Source: Acholeplasma hippikon
GTDB taxonomy: Bacteria; Bacillota_I; Bacilli_A; Acholeplasmatales; Acholeplasmataceae
Direction: 5' to 3'
DNA length: 64,000 nt
Assembly (NCBI RefSeq): GCF_900660755.1
Contig: NZ_LR215050.1
Location: 558,001-622,000, forward strand
Shown here one piece after another: positions 15,703 to 25,707 of the stretch. Every line of letters begins with the position of its first letter. Position 1 is the first letter of the stretch. The position numbers and the translations under genes are program-made. The notes beneath the pieces are model-generated. The model was not told the origin of the DNA. It was given only the letters and a program-made list of their open reading frames with translations, and made no database searches.

Positions 15703-16179
15703 TTATAGTCCTTCTTTTAATGCTTCTTCTAAGAGTGATGCTGGAATAACTTGCATATTCCAGAACTTTTCTTTAGGCTTTGTGAATCTAATTTCATTTT
15801 CATCATAATGATACATAAATGGTCCTGGATGTGGATAGATAATCACTATTTTTTTACCAGGAATACTGGCAAATACTTTTTGTTCAAGATAAAGTTTACT
15901 TCCACCTTTTTTTCTTTCCCAAATAGTTTTTGAATTAAAGGTTAGTTTATACTCAGGGTTTAACTTTAAAAACATCACAGAATAAGTTTCGTCTTGATAT
16001 GTGTACTTAGTAAACATACTATGACCTTCCTCATGAAGTTTACCATATTTTTCTAAAGTTTCTTTAATCTCTTGAAGATGTTTAGCATCTTTTTCAATAC
16101 TTTTTGATGTGAAAAAATAAACTAAATATCCAATAACAATTACTAAAACACTAATAATTGCATATATTAAAACATCCAT
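15703..16179 (-). CDS. Small membrane-anchored protein of unknown function
   Basis: 158 residues: one N-terminal membrane helix (about 3-25), a short charged coiled-coil-like stretch (EKDAKHLQEIKETLEKYGK), then a small beta-rich domain with FNSKTIWERKKGGSKLYLEQK. I do not recognise the family. Its ATG overlaps the stop of the Nudix gene (TAATG), and the ABC-F gene starts 4 bases after it, so the three form an operon. Confidence 0.75.
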   Translation of the reverse strand: MDVLIYAIISVLVIVIGYLVYFFTSKSIEKDAKHLQEIKETLEKYGKLHEEGHSMFTKYTYQDETYSVMFLKLNPEYKLTFNSKTIWERKKGGSKLYLEQKVFASIPGKKIVIIYPHPGPFMYHYDENEIRFTKPKEKFWNMQVIPASLLEEALKEGL

Positions 16180-16664
16180 TATATTTCCTCTACTTCTACT
16201 TTCGCTAAAATATTTCCATCAAATGTGCAATGATAATGATATCTCTTTTCATTAAAACATACGTTTTCTAAGAAATATGGGATATTATAACTTACACCCA
16301 AATTATCTTTATCAACTAACCATTCAATTGATTTCCACTCAATGATTCCCTCATCTGTTGCTACAGGTGTTTGATATGTAAAGTCATTATCTAAATTTAC
16401 TAAGAATAAATGCAAGCCACTATCTTGTGCAGTAAAATCTTTATTCCAAGTACATAGACCTTTATCTTTAATTTGATCTAAGTTTATATTTATACCCGTT
16501 TCTTCTTTAATTTCTCTTAAGATGCAATCAAGTGGAGTTTCATTTCGATGACGTTTTCCACCTATTCCGTTCCACATACCTTTCCAAGGTTGTTTTAAAC
16601 GGTTCATCATTAAGATTTCATTGTTTCTTTTTATAAATGCTAAAGTATAAATAAATTCCATCAT
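16179..16664 (-). CDS. Nudix hydrolase (8-oxo-dGTPase-like)
   Basis: 161 residues. The Nudix box is complete: 23 residues from GKRHRNETPLD to REIKEETGI, fitting Gx5Ex7REUxEExGU. The N-terminal TLAFIKRNNEILMMNRLKQPWKGMWNGIGG is typical of MutT/8-oxo-dGTP diphosphatases and related nucleotide cleaners. I start it at the ATG at 16664, with TTGGAG six bases upstream. A longer reading frame to 16745 would begin inside a terminator hairpin and is rejected. First gene of a three-gene unit with the membrane protein and ABC-F genes. Confidence 0.88.
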   Translation of the reverse strand: MMEFIYTLAFIKRNNEILMMNRLKQPWKGMWNGIGGKRHRNETPLDCILREIKEETGININLDQIKDKGLCTWNKDFTAQDSGLHLFLVNLDNDFTYQTPVATDEGIIEWKSIEWLVDKDNLGVSYNIPYFLENVCFNEKRYHYHCTFDGNILAKVEVEEI

Positions 16665-16703
16665 CAAAGTCTCCAATATGTTAATTATTATATCGTATTT
16701 ATA

Positions 16704-16765
16704 CAAAAATAGAGCCATTTTCTTCAAATGTTTGTTTACAAACATCGTAATGGCTCTATTTTTAA
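16704..16765. terminator. Large bidirectional terminator hairpin
   Basis: Outer 15-bp stem (705-719 with 749-763 of the 16,000 block), inner perfect palindrome of 8-base arms (16728-16745), and T runs on both strands. It ends any transcript coming from the peptide gene and separates it from the Nudix operon. Confidence 0.9.
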
Positions 16766-16926: not shown

Positions 16927-17109
16927 TTAGAATCCGCCAGCAAACTCAATTTTGCCAATTGGATTTCTTAGATCCGGACCTACATCATCAAATCCAACTT
17001 GTACAGCTGATTTATTATCTTCAGCTAATGCTTGTGGTTTTAAACTAATAACAGTAACACCTAAGATTAACACGAATAGTAAAGCTACAAAAATTTTGAT
17101 TTTTTTCAT
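16927..17109 (-). CDS. Putative secreted signalling peptide precursor
   Basis: 60 residues. A positively charged start (MKKIKIF) and a hydrophobic core to about residue 22 form a signal peptide, with a good cleavage site in PQALA-EDNK (after A29). The mature part is 31 residues, ending in the hydrophobic tail GKIEFAGGF. This is the build of RRNPP pheromone precursors such as PapR: export signal, short linker, active C-terminal oligopeptide. It is divergent from an Rgg/PlcR-like regulator, with an 88-base intergenic region holding a palindrome. Ribosome site GAGGTGA seven bases upstream. No other known family is evident; a plain secreted small protein remains possible. Confidence 0.7.
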   Translation of the reverse strand: MKKIKIFVALLFVLILGVTVISLKPQALAEDNKSAVQVGFDDVGPDLRNPIGKIEFAGGF

Positions 17110-17131
17110 ATGTAAATCACCTCATGTCTAT

Positions 17132-17160
17132 ATTGTACATAATATTTTTCAAATATTACA
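17132..17160 (-). promoter_or_regulatory. Probable activator-dependent promoter of the peptide gene
   Basis: Minus strand: weak -35 TGTAAT (17155-17160), 17-base spacer, good -10 TACAAT (17132-17137), start near 17125 just ahead of the ribosome site. The -35 matches consensus poorly and directly touches the palindrome at 17161-17174, the arrangement seen at Rgg- and PlcR-activated promoters. Confidence 0.55.
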
Positions 17161-17174
17161 CGACATATATGTCG
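17161..17174. promoter_or_regulatory. Perfect 14-bp palindrome, candidate operator of the regulator
   Basis: CGACATATATGTCG is fully self-complementary. It lies between the divergent peptide and regulator genes, abutting the -35 of the peptide promoter and 24 bases before the regulator start codon, so it could both activate the peptide gene and autoregulate the regulator. Confidence 0.6.
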
Positions 17175-17197
17175 CATCTTTATGAAAGGAGACACAA

Positions 17198-18139
17198 ATG
17201 GTCGTTGACTACTCAAAAGAATTAGCGTTGTTTTTAGAAAAGCTCCGTTTTTTAAGGGGAATTTCTCAAGAAGATTTTACCGACGGAATCATTTCTAATA
17301 GACAATATCAGCGTTATGTTCGAGGCGAATCTCCGATGCCATTTCATTTAATAAATGAATTCGCAGTAAAACTGAATATAAAAAAAGAGGATTTAATCCT
17401 TGAATTTCAAAATAGTTCAATCGATGAAACAACCCGTGTCATAAACTATTTTTCAGCAGTATTAAACAGGGATCTGGAGAAAATACCAGTTTTAAAAAAG
17501 AAAATATCGAGAGAATTTTTAATTGAACTAGAAAATAAATCTCTATTTAAACATGCAGAAAGTGTGGAATTCTTTTTTGATAAAAAGATTTCAACTGATC
17601 AACTTAGAAGAAATCTTTTTGAATTATGTAACTATCCAGATGTTTTAAATCGCGTCCCAATTTCATTAAACGATGCATTAATCTTGTCTTCGATATTAAA
17701 TTACACTGACACAAACGATAAATCTCAAATAGCCAATAAAATTCTAGATGTAATCGAAAATCCTAAATATACATTTAGTGCTTATCAAATTACAACATTT
17801 AATATCTTAACTTTTAATCTCGCTAAATATCATGGTCGAAATAAAGAGTTTGAAAAGTGTATTGAAATTTGTAAAATTGGTATTTCATTTAATCAACGTA
17901 AAGAATCTATTCAAAATATGATTCAATATTACTACTTCCAAGCACTATGCTACAAAGAGTTACAAAATACTGATATGATGAAGTATTGTTTATTTAAATG
18001 CTATAGTTCTATAAATATCTCTGATTCTGAAGAAAAGATGCAATTTTATACCAAATTAATCGAAACTGATTTCAATATTAATTTTGATGAATTTATTGCA
18101 GACTATATTAAAAATAAAAAAGGCCTAAGAAAATCTTAG
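17198..18139 (+). CDS. Rgg/PlcR-like transcriptional regulator (RRNPP family)
   Basis: 313 residues. Residues about 8-62 are an HTH domain of the XRE type (LEKLRFLRGISQEDFTDGI, then SNRQYQRYVRGESPMPFHLI and LNIKKEDL). From about 80 to the end it is all alpha-helical with TPR-like spacing (for example AKYHGRNKEFEKCIEICKIG and YFQALCYKELQNTDMMKYCL), the peptide-binding domain of cytosolic pheromone receptors. On the plus strand against the general direction, it is divergent from a gene for a 60-residue secreted peptide. AAGGAG lies six bases before the ATG. A terminator follows at 18120-18147. That it senses the neighbouring peptide is inference, though the arrangement is classic. Confidence 0.82.
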   Translation: MVVDYSKELALFLEKLRFLRGISQEDFTDGIISNRQYQRYVRGESPMPFHLINEFAVKLNIKKEDLILEFQNSSIDETTRVINYFSAVLNRDLEKIPVLKKKISREFLIELENKSLFKHAESVEFFFDKKISTDQLRRNLFELCNYPDVLNRVPISLNDALILSSILNYTDTNDKSQIANKILDVIENPKYTFSAYQITTFNILTFNLAKYHGRNKEFEKCIEICKIGISFNQRKESIQNMIQYYYFQALCYKELQNTDMMKYCLFKCYSSINISDSEEKMQFYTKLIETDFNINFDEFIADYIKNKKGLRKS

Positions 18140-18147
18140 GCTTTTTT
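18120..18147 (+). terminator. Terminator of the regulator gene
   Basis: GCCTAAGA and TCTTAGGC form an 8-bp stem around AAA, followed by six T. It overlaps the regulator stop and the convergent gene's 3' end. Confidence 0.85.
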
Positions 18148-18753
18148 GATGACTTGTTTTTCTAGTAAATTTTTTAGGAAAACTAAGAATACTGTAAATA
18201 CAGCAATGACAGGTAATAAAATTAAACAGCAAAATACTAATACACTTGTTAAACTTGCATCCGGTAACGTAGGATTTAAGAATCCATAAGGATACCAATT
18301 CGTAAATGCTCCTTGAATTAAAATGATAACGAAATAACAAAGTGGAAAGATTAATGTAACCCAAAAATCTCTAATTTTAATTCCTGGTGTGACAAATAAA
18401 AAATAGAAAATTGGAAATGCTATTGGTGAGAATGTATGTACAAAGTGATTATTGAGTGATAAATTACCATCACTTAAAAGTGCATGGTAGATTATACCGG
18501 TGATCAAAATTGATACTAATGTTATGACGCTAAAATACTTATAAAACGGTTTACTATCCAATTTTAAGACATAAAACAATACTGCTAAAAATGCTAAAAT
18601 ATTTGATAAATTCGTGAAGAATCTAAGTCTTTCAAAAAACTCAAAGAAGTTATCGTTAAAAAACATTTGTAATACTGAATATGAATGAATAGCTAAAATA
18701 AATCCTACAATGACCCATTTAATTCTTTCATTATTTCTTAAATTATTTACCAT
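18136..18753 (-). CDS. Pr6Pr/FAR-17a-like six-helix membrane protein
   Basis: 205 residues with six hydrophobic helices. Features resembling the Pr6Pr family of bacterial membrane proteins are the early FFTNLSNILAF, a central NNHFVHTFSPIAFPIFYFL and a late NWYPYGFLNP. Function is unknown. I start it at the ATG at 18753, because GGGAGA lies six bases upstream; the longer frame (to 18834) has no ribosome site. The ribosome site sequence GGGAGAA is exactly complementary to the UUCUCCC loop of hairpin A downstream of the peptide gene. It converges on the regulator gene. Confidence 0.78.
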   Translation of the reverse strand: MVNNLRNNERIKWVIVGFILAIHSYSVLQMFFNDNFFEFFERLRFFTNLSNILAFLAVLFYVLKLDSKPFYKYFSVITLVSILITGIIYHALLSDGNLSLNNHFVHTFSPIAFPIFYFLFVTPGIKIRDFWVTLIFPLCYFVIILIQGAFTNWYPYGFLNPTLPDASLTSVLVFCCLILLPVIAVFTVFLVFLKNLLEKQVIKKA

Positions 18754-18852
18754 AAATTTCTCCCTCATTTTTAATTTATTACAATAATTATATGAGTATC
18801 GACGATATTTTTCTATGAATATACACTTATTCATATTTTTTTGAAATTACTG

Positions 18853-22701: not shown

Positions 22702-25700
22702 TTAATTACCTGCAATCTTGTAGAATAGTTGATCTGCTGTAATTCTCTTGTAGATTGGCCCTTCAATATACTTAATTTGCAATTCTTGAAGTTGTTCTTT
22801 TTGTTCTTTTGTCTTAACATCACGAATGACTAATGCCATTTGATGATTTTGTAACATCAGATTTAATAGTTTAATATAATCATTCCATTTACTATCATTT
22901 TTCTTGTAATCAAGATGAACTGCATTGAATGGATAGTTTAACGCAACTTCAACACTCGTTGTATCCATACCGATACCAACCTTTGCAAGTTCATCAATTA
23001 AAGTAATATGTTCTCTACTCTTTAAGTTATCTCCTTTAATCTTAAATCGTATAAACTCAAATGGAATTTCATATTTTTGGAATAACCCAAATACGTATGG
23101 GTTAAAGTTCAAGTCAGTAAATGTTTCTTTTGCAATTGGAATCGTAATTTTAACTAATTTTTGAGTTTCTTTTTCTAATGTGTTTAAAAACTCACAAACC
23201 ATCTTAATGTGATATTTTTCTAGGTCAAATAAGCGATTACGTTTTTTAGCAATGGCAAGTAAATACTTTGAATCAATATCCATATTTGGTAAGACTAATT
23301 CACTTTCATATTGCCATACGACATTTCTATCAACATCAATGATTTGATTAAATGACAGTGATAACTGACTTTTATTCATCGCTTCATTTAAATAGTTAAT
23401 CACTTGTTGTTCAAAAACTTCATCTTCATAAATCTTATGTTCAAAATAAATAAAGTGTTCATCTGTTCCTAAACGTTTTAAATAGTCTAATGACAATTCT
23501 AAATATCTAAATAACTTAGCTGGATTCTTTTCTTCTGTTACCACTGGATATCGAATAATTGATAGTTTCGGTTGAAACTTCTCATAATTAATTACTTGTG
23601 ATTCGTAGTTTTCAACAAAACGTAAGTAATCCTTAACCATTTTCGTTACACTACGAATATCGTTATAAGGAATATATAAAAATAATTGGTATGTTGAGAA
23701 ACGATAGACTTCTCCATCGGTAAAGAACTTCTTGGTTACCTGACCAAATTCTTTAAAGAATTGTATAGCAACATCATAGCCATAAATCGGTAAGATGGAT
23801 TCATTAAATGATAAGAGAATAAACGAGCCTTTATCTTTAATAAGTTCCACCAAGTTTTCATTTAAGGCATTCATATTTGGTAATGAGGTTTCAAAATCTA
23901 CTGTTGCTTCCATAACTAATTTGCTTCTTTCTTCATAATAATTTGTTAAATCTTCATAGGTTGAGATAATCTTAATTTCATTTTTATCTTGAATTGAAAT
24001 TAAACGCTCTCTAATTTGTTTTCCTTGATATAAATAAGTAACCGCATCTGATAAATTAGGTTTACTAAATAGGCGTTCAATTAAGATTTCGTAACTCTTA
24101 ACTTCATGCACTCCTAAATTTCTTAAGAATATTTCATAAGGCATGTGACTGTCTGCATTAAGCAGTTTTTGTGCTGGAATATTATAACTTGTATGTGCCT
24201 CACACATTATACGATAAGGTGTTAAGTTACTATCAAATATTTTCTTTAAAAACTGTAAATCATCACGTAAACGTTGACGTTTTTCTTCATCCACAAGCAT
24301 TGTATATAAAATTGAAGAAATACCTCTTAATAAATCATAGTATTCACCAGGATCAATAACATCTATGTCAAAGTGTACCAAAAATACCCCTTGATCATAA
24401 ATTGGGAAGGCAAATAAATATTTAATATCGTCTGTATATTTATTTAACGTTAAAATATTTTTATCATATTTCAGCGTTTCAATGGTACCAAAACGTTCTT
24501 CACCATCTTTAATGATTTCATAAATAACCGTATCAGCATAACTTGATTTTAAAAGTGTTTTATCATATAAACGCTCTTTTTTATAATTAAATAGTGTCTC
24601 TGTATCTGCTTTAAAGACAATTAAATCTTTTACAACTAAATACTCCTCTAATTTCATGAAAAAACTTCTTAAGGTATCTCTTAAGTTTTTTGTCTCTGAT
24701 ATTTGATGCGAATAACCAATTAAATCCACTAAATGATTAAAGTTTTGAAGTGTATTTGACTTTGGTTTAATCTTTAATGGGGTAAATGATTCTTCTTGTT
24801 TGGTTTCTAAAACAATTTCTTTCCCATCAACTGATTTTGTTTTCTTTTCTTTTTTCTCTTCTTTAGTGATTTGTTTTAGTTTTTTTGTAAATAAATCAAT
24901 GTTATATTTATTCTTTAATTCTGTGTATAAAGTAATTAATAACGGATAAATCTTTAATTTATAATTTACTGGAGCATTTTCTAACATCACTTCATAATCT
25001 GCATCTAAAATCGTTGCACGGTGAAAATCACGTTCTATAATATAAATTCTAAGTAATGCTAAATACGCATCCATTGCGTAAAGCTGATGTCCTTTATAAC
25101 TTTCAGCTAATTTCTTTAAATCATCTATTTGATTAAGTTTATATAAGGTTTCAAAATAATCTGGTATATAAGTTTGTTTTAAATCAACGCGTTTCAATTC
25201 ATCAATTAAATCAATAATCTTATGTTCTTTTCCTGTATTTAAATATATTTCTAATAGTTCTTTTAAAATTTTTAATTTAATTTCTTCAGGAATAAAATCT
25301 TCTTTTAATGCTTCTAGTTCATGAACATAATCTTGATTGGTTAATTTCTTAAATTCGATTAATTTTAATTGCGCTTTATAATTTTCTAAAACTGGTAACT
25401 CTTCTTTATAAATTTGAATAAATTGGTATGCTACATCAAACTTTCTTAAAATAAGTGCAGCATCAATAATAAAGTTAATTAAATCGAGTTTATCTTTGAT
25501 TACTTCTTTATTCAATCTTTCATAATAAGTTACACCTTGACGAACAACATCTTCATAACGACCTAATTCAAATTTTAGTTTAATTAAATGGGAAAAAACA
25601 GTATGAAATTCAAATACTGTTAAGGTTTTATAATTGATAAAATTTTCTATTTCAACAACTGCTTCATCACTTGCAGTATATTGAAGTAAAGTTTGAATAT

Positions 25701-25707
25701 TTATCAT
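22702..25707 (-). CDS. Large cytosolic protein with degenerate GGDEF and EAL domains
   Basis: 1001 residues, no membrane helix. The first 300 or so are TPR-like helices. A GAF-like region follows (about 310-465), then a helical, PAS-like part. Around residue 600, DFETSLPNMNALNENL resembles the DxLTGLPNRxxL start of GGDEF domains, but the GGDEF loop reads YRFSTYQLFLYIP, so cyclase activity is unlikely. The last 250 residues follow an EAL fold (LSFNQIIDVDRNVVWQYESEL; LIDELAKVGIGMDT; KYIEGPIYKRITADQLF), with the EAL tripeptide and the usual metal ligands largely lost. It is likely a nucleotide-sensing or scaffold protein. It starts 1 base after the kinase-like gene and is coupled to the HEPN-like gene. 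Confidence 0.78.
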   Translation of the reverse strand: MINIQTLLQYTASDEAVVEIENFINYKTLTVFEFHTVFSHLIKLKFELGRYEDVVRQGVTYYERLNKEVIKDKLDLINFIIDAALILRKFDVAYQFIQIYKEELPVLENYKAQLKLIEFKKLTNQDYVHELEALKEDFIPEEIKLKILKELLEIYLNTGKEHKIIDLIDELKRVDLKQTYIPDYFETLYKLNQIDDLKKLAESYKGHQLYAMDAYLALLRIYIIERDFHRATILDADYEVMLENAPVNYKLKIYPLLITLYTELKNKYNIDLFTKKLKQITKEEKKEKKTKSVDGKEIVLETKQEESFTPLKIKPKSNTLQNFNHLVDLIGYSHQISETKNLRDTLRSFFMKLEEYLVVKDLIVFKADTETLFNYKKERLYDKTLLKSSYADTVIYEIIKDGEERFGTIETLKYDKNILTLNKYTDDIKYLFAFPIYDQGVFLVHFDIDVIDPGEYYDLLRGISSILYTMLVDEEKRQRLRDDLQFLKKIFDSNLTPYRIMCEAHTSYNIPAQKLLNADSHMPYEIFLRNLGVHEVKSYEILIERLFSKPNLSDAVTYLYQGKQIRERLISIQDKNEIKIISTYEDLTNYYEERSKLVMEATVDFETSLPNMNALNENLVELIKDKGSFILLSFNESILPIYGYDVAIQFFKEFGQVTKKFFTDGEVYRFSTYQLFLYIPYNDIRSVTKMVKDYLRFVENYESQVINYEKFQPKLSIIRYPVVTEEKNPAKLFRYLELSLDYLKRLGTDEHFIYFEHKIYEDEVFEQQVINYLNEAMNKSQLSLSFNQIIDVDRNVVWQYESELVLPNMDIDSKYLLAIAKKRNRLFDLEKYHIKMVCEFLNTLEKETQKLVKITIPIAKETFTDLNFNPYVFGLFQKYEIPFEFIRFKIKGDNLKSREHITLIDELAKVGIGMDTTSVEVALNYPFNAVHLDYKKNDSKWNDYIKLLNLMLQNHQMALVIRDVKTKEQKEQLQELQIKYIEGPIYKRITADQLFYKIAGN

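Follow-up and report, generated by a model that had tools for sequence, protein, structure and literature searches.

Do two divergent genes of Acholeplasma hippikon encode a peptide-pheromone circuit, a form of signalling of which we found no report in acholeplasma-like mollicutes? They lie in a window of 64,000 nt (assembly GCF_900660755.1, contig NZ_LR215050.1, positions 558,001-622,000, forward strand; genome G000), in which coordinates are given below unless another locus is named. An earlier note, made from the sequence alone, had proposed a quorum-sensing locus of the RRNPP type in which a 60-residue precursor with a signal peptide is divergent from a regulator with a helix-turn-helix (HTH) and helical repeats. 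The open reading frames (ORFs) of 60 and 313 aa, their strands and the 88 nt between them (17110-17197) are as described there, and each gene has a Shine-Dalgarno sequence (Table 1). The 60-aa protein starts with MKKIKIFVALLFVLILGVTV; a plausible signal-peptidase site, judged by eye, falls at ALA/ED after residue 29. We conclude that the gene pair very probably forms an RRNPP-type peptide-pheromone circuit that amplifies itself, because the predicted fold of the regulator, the co-conservation of both genes, a common operator with activator-type geometry and an intact Opp importer all support this reading.

Fold of the regulator and its pairing with a small gene

Searched singly, both proteins stay below the curated cut-offs of Pfam and NCBIfam. 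Against Pfam, the regulator gave sub-threshold matches to HTH_3 (E 0.046) and to the tetratricopeptide repeat (TPR; E 0.33), and a single-protein search of PDB sequences with it found no match. An alignment of 41 regulator homologues was used both as a profile and as input to AlphaFold2. The profile matches Rgg2 structures, the best profile-to-sequence match in PDB, while 31 of the 41 homologues match HTH_3 and two match RNPP_C. The resulting model has a predicted local distance difference test score (pLDDT) of 91, and its 35 Foldseek matches in PDB at E<=1e-3 are PlcR, ComR, PrgX and Rgg together with one uncharacterised Listeria regulator (4ryk). VIA-align placed PlcR first, with Z 17.3 over 268 residues (root-mean-square deviation 8.3 for the whole chain) against Z 11-13 for unrelated TPR proteins; ComR, Rgg and PrgX are close behind, and the model aligns with all four from residue 5-6, though identity to PlcR is only about 15%. 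The model thus has the N-terminal XRE-type HTH and the C-terminal TPR-like superhelix of receptor type by which RRNPP/RRNPPA regulators are recognised, even where TPR sequence models remain sub-threshold, and structure prediction bears out the PlcR/Rgg-like architecture that had been suggested.

Homologues of the regulator occur in 44 of the 88 genomes of the family and in 52 of 160 in the order, with none in the small-genome clade g11, which is phytoplasma-like in size. A scan of a genome collection gave matches in Acholeplasma equifetale, oculi, laidlawii and granularum, in Izimaplasma metagenome-assembled genomes, in Haloplasma, in Peloplasma and in others. We counted an ORF as paired if it was divergent, carried a Shine-Dalgarno sequence and a hydrophobic basic leader, and lay 15-200 nt from the regulator. 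Such an ORF stands beside the regulator at 66 of 98 distinct loci. Of 1960 upstream regions shuffled by a Markov model, 9 had one, and so did 1 of 338 other genes in the loci that were compared, so that an adjacent gene for a small, apparently exported propeptide, a further mark of RRNPP/RRNPPA systems, is also present. The window genome's own regulator paralogue has the same divergent layout. Beside close homologues the small gene is rarely absent, and the co-conservation that had been proposed as a check therefore holds. A search of IMG/VR with one conserved pattern, bearing on a phage origin or an arbitrium-like role, returned no relative.

Putative signal core, operator and precursor promoter

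Behind the leader, precursors share a core of approximately [LVI][DG]F.[DN].G.P[ED], which in the window reads VGFDDVGPDL and to which LGFEDFGNTDL corresponds in A. laidlawii. In many relatives, spread over several genera, the core unit of 13-18 residues is repeated head to tail in 3-9 copies, as in the precursors of loci L031 (five copies of LDFDDSGYPELIR), L129 (nine of LDFDNEDDLPEYVT) and L052 (six of LDFENSGSVEWFGQPDVI), with RR between the units in L034 and L036. Copies within a precursor keep the same amino acids in different codons: pooled over 20 precursors, synonymous divergence (pS) is 0.38, nonsynonymous divergence (pN) 0.0017 and pN/pS about 0.004, where pN is biased low by the choice of repeat units for similarity. 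At the sequence level, a pS of this size between copies shows that they are old and that each is held by selection. Five of five copies are altered in step between L023 and L027, and the two precursors of the L006/L008 pair (A. laidlawii type) show 6 synonymous differences and 0 nonsynonymous ones. In the tandem-repeat precursors of L026 and L033 the reading frame is lost within the array, by assembly error or by real loss.

Since the precursors have this core in common, often repeated with identical amino acids, sequence comparison points to VGFDDVGPDL as the signal. The earlier note had placed it in C-terminal fragments near IEFAGGF; that tail is present, but it is the unconserved part of the protein, and constraint falls on residues 38-47. 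IEFAGGF is rejected as the pheromone, since the relatives' precursors close with P.G.[VL][NH]P and what they have in common is the internal core. Unconstrained drift of the peptide, named beforehand as a possible refutation, was likewise not what we found: purifying selection is strong, though on the core and not at the C-terminus.

A palindrome is found in nearly every intergenic region, as CGACATATATGTCG in the window's genus and in a form like AGGGCGTATATGTCCT elsewhere. At no fewer than 44 of 60 loci, and in the window as well, a TAnnnT -10 element (TACAAT in the window) follows on the precursor side at exactly 21 nt, while the best -35 hexamer usually matches at 2-3 of 6 bases. With a transcript start predicted some 7 nt beyond TACAAT (near 17125, -), the centre of the box falls at about -42.5, a position typical of class II activators. 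Operator and fixed spacing together form an activator-type arrangement, pointing to activation rather than repression. Because the box also lies 20 nt from the start codon of the regulator, the latter probably tunes its own expression. Residue 38 of the recognition helix is Q at 20 of 20 loci with TGTCG and R or K at 31 of 31 with TGTCC, the strongest such association among 119 positions.

From these parts we infer a closed loop. The precursor would be secreted by Sec and processed, the cut releasing a peptide around VGFDDVGPDL; this peptide would be re-imported through the Opp transporter and bind the TPR superhelix of the regulator, and the liganded regulator would then bind the palindrome and activate the precursor promoter, which has no recognisable -35 element, giving positive feedback. 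The peptide would in this way act as a signal whose effect depends on cell density. In relatives, regulators of the same family would turn on additional surface and toxin-like genes.

Further box-driven genes and competing explanations

Searching ten g9/g10 genomes, we found the box 31 times, regulator loci included, as against none for a reversed-pattern control; a search of four genomes with the box of the paralogue type gave 7 sites, and 1 for the control. Among 26 extra boxes, 22 are accompanied, in the same orientation, by TAnnnT at a distance of 20-22 nt (chance probability 0.10 for each), and the remaining four have TAAAA[CGA] at the -10 position. Among the genes downstream are those for RHS-repeat proteins of about 2070-2310 aa, with small ORFs after them (L202, L203, L207), for a MACPF lipoprotein with Listeria-Bacteroides repeats directly behind the box at the 21-nt geometry (L206 323-3577), for an SPFH protein together with a 5TMR/GGDEF/HD protein (L180 and relatives), for a lipoprotein that weakly resembles matrixin (L182) and for a secreted protein of G004 that has no Pfam match (L199) and for which a search of the genus found no homologues. 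G002 (two cassettes) and G007 carry, behind the precursor, an ORF that by eye is sigma-factor-like, then other ORFs and an RHS gene for about 2250 aa (L210, L211). In several relatives, therefore, large toxin-like surface proteins appear to be under the control of this switch. As an output in the window species, RHS proteins were rejected, G000 having no RHS repeat gene. At L210 3953-13913 and L211 4722-14557 the order is precursor, sigma-factor-like ORF, small membrane protein, two conserved ORFs, RHS-type gene and small ORF, a layout that may be described as a pheromone-linked polymorphic-toxin-like cassette.

Several observations weigh against a pheromone circuit. The box is unique within the 64-kb window, and a search of the window genome at up to 3 mismatches found no box-driven promoter besides that of the precursor. 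The window's own peptide carries the core once, and its tail is atypical. At a few loci, mostly of distant homologues, there is no recognisable precursor, and one group has small ORFs that look leaderless. The co-variation of residue 38 with the operator, although perfect, reflects 2-3 independent changes, which are too few to count as proof. Finally, the earlier note had called for a search for an Opp importer, and a complete oppABCDF operon is indeed present in the window genome (G000:C1, L145 7679-16562), but because Opp is found in 84 of 88 family genomes it is a necessary support that does not discriminate.

The solitary box-driven promoter would suit an explanation in which the secreted peptide is itself the effector, bacteriocin-like or surface-active, and the regulator is a local transcription factor with another ligand and no pheromone loop. 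We regard this as unlikely: the fold of the regulator is that of peptide-pheromone receptors, the box drives many other genes in relatives, and the core is strongly acidic, unlike what is generally known of membrane-active peptides. Less probable still, and by some way, is that the regulator eavesdrops on, or senses as nutrients, other peptides among the many that Opp imports, with the adjacent secreted peptide serving a separate role. Some distant homologues do stand without an adjacent precursor, but the pairing is tight (66/98 versus 1/338). Core similarity also tracks receptor similarity (Mantel r 0.57, 0/5000 permutations), though shared descent alone could yield the same, and in the window species the two have diverged together, the receptor lying on the longest branch of its genus and the peptide tail having changed too. 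A chance neighbourhood, in which an ordinary XRE regulator lies beside an unrelated or non-coding small ORF, would agree with the sub-threshold single-protein searches but is effectively refuted by the control genes, the purifying selection on the peptide and the conserved operator and promoter. By every feature that could be tested in sequence and model, the system belongs with RRNPP signalling, as a branch of its own.

Table 1. Features of the divergent gene pair, in window coordinates.
Feature	Position	Strand	Description
Strong hairpin followed by a U-run, 3' of the precursor gene	16705-16764		Fold z-score -6.7 for the 3' region
Predicted pheromone precursor gene, 60 aa	16927-17109	-	Signal peptide residues 1-29, mature part 30-60; ORF calls and relatives' precursors
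Conserved putative pheromone core VGFDDVGPDL, residues 38-47	16969-16998	-	Alignment with 7 congeners and tandem-repeat precursors
Shine-Dalgarno GAGGTGA, precursor gene	17117-17123	-	
-10 element TACAAT, precursor promoter	17132-17137	-	Exactly 21 nt from the operator box; same spacing at >=44/60 loci
Putative operator box ACACGACATATATGTCGCAT	17158-17177		Palindrome CGACATATATGTCG at 17161-17174; centre near -42.5 of the precursor promoter; kept at nearly all loci
Shine-Dalgarno AAAGGAG, regulator gene	17185-17191	+	
Regulator/receptor gene, 313 aa	17198-18139	+	HTH at about residues 6-58, TPR-like helical superhelix 63-311; AlphaFold model pLDDT 91
Terminator-like hairpin, end of the regulator gene	18123-18147		Sequence

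With hairpins beyond both genes the locus looks like a self-contained module of two genes, and the strong hairpin and U-run suggest that the precursor is probably monocistronic. In 8 of 8 genomes of the genus the pair is accompanied on one side by genes for a membrane protein and a NUDIX protein, and in 7 of 8 on the other by a gene for a multi-pass membrane protein (window flanking genes 15706-16745 (-) and 18139-18834 (-)). As these genes stand beyond the hairpins, their conservation may be synteny only, and a comparison of neighbour conservation around the locus brought out no clear function. Elsewhere in the window, a 1001-aa EAL-domain protein is encoded at 22702-25707 (-). In the paralogue group with apparently leaderless ORFs (L015, L016, L019, L021, L024, L029, L035, L039) small divergent ORFs such as MKKQPAGALDQTTVDQWDGFYWIGDPEFIWNPKDEPQTSNPSGGTTK in L024 are found; several have a PE/PD motif, the operator box is retained, and a large membrane-protein gene beyond is common to 7 of the 8.

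Relation to known peptide-signalling systems

On a wider scale, we think it likely, if less firmly than for the gene pair itself, that the locus belongs to an RRNPP branch which is widespread in Acholeplasmatales and related lineages and apparently undescribed. Its pheromones would often be polyproteins, with up to nine identical copies of an acidic unit of 13-18 residues, and its class-II-type activator promoters would coordinate RHS polymorphic-toxin-like and MACPF proteins; by our literature search, it would be the first peptide quorum sensing in Mollicutes. Three large surveys of RRNPP systems (PMC10075063, PMC9765709, PMC12700828) name neither Mollicutes nor Acholeplasma nor Tenericutes in the main text, and a literature search of partial coverage found no report joining RRNPP with Mollicutes or A. 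laidlawii with a peptide pheromone, in line with the novelty claimed in the earlier note. The branch was likely missed because TPR models stay sub-threshold and because many of the propeptides are longer than the 100 aa that RRNPP_detector allows.

Mollicutes are usually viewed as poor in regulation, and a complete cell-cell signalling circuit, if true, would alter that view. The predicted circuit is present also in the cultivable A. laidlawii. Tandem-repeat precursors reveal the signal unit without any data beyond sequence, and from the operator and its constant spacing target promoters can be predicted across a genome, those of toxin-like genes among them, so that the model is directly testable with synthetic peptides and a reporter.

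PlcR-PapR of the Bacillus cereus group is the nearest structural parallel, with an HTH and TPR receptor, an adjacent Sec-type propeptide, palindromic boxes before activated promoters and extracellular-protein targets. It differs in sequence and box, and here the precursor is divergent from the receptor gene and has a longer, acidic core, often in several copies, that lies inside the protein and not at the C-terminus as in a PapR-type peptide. Rgg-SHP and ComR-XIP of streptococci belong to the same fold class, and the divergent layout of rgg and shp is similar to that of the acholeplasma pair. SHP and XIP precursors are short and, according to PMC9765709, never multi-copy and exported by PptAB, whereas those described here have a Sec-type signal peptide and are frequently multi-copy. 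Tandem repeats are not new in kind, as multi-copy propeptides of up to 8 copies are known in Rap, NprR, AimR and PlcR systems (PMC11343458, PMC9765709). One such system is Rap-Phr, in which one propeptide can hold up to 8 identical copies of the mature pheromone (PMC11343458); Rap, however, has no HTH, and in the acholeplasma branch the polyprotein form is common across several genera.
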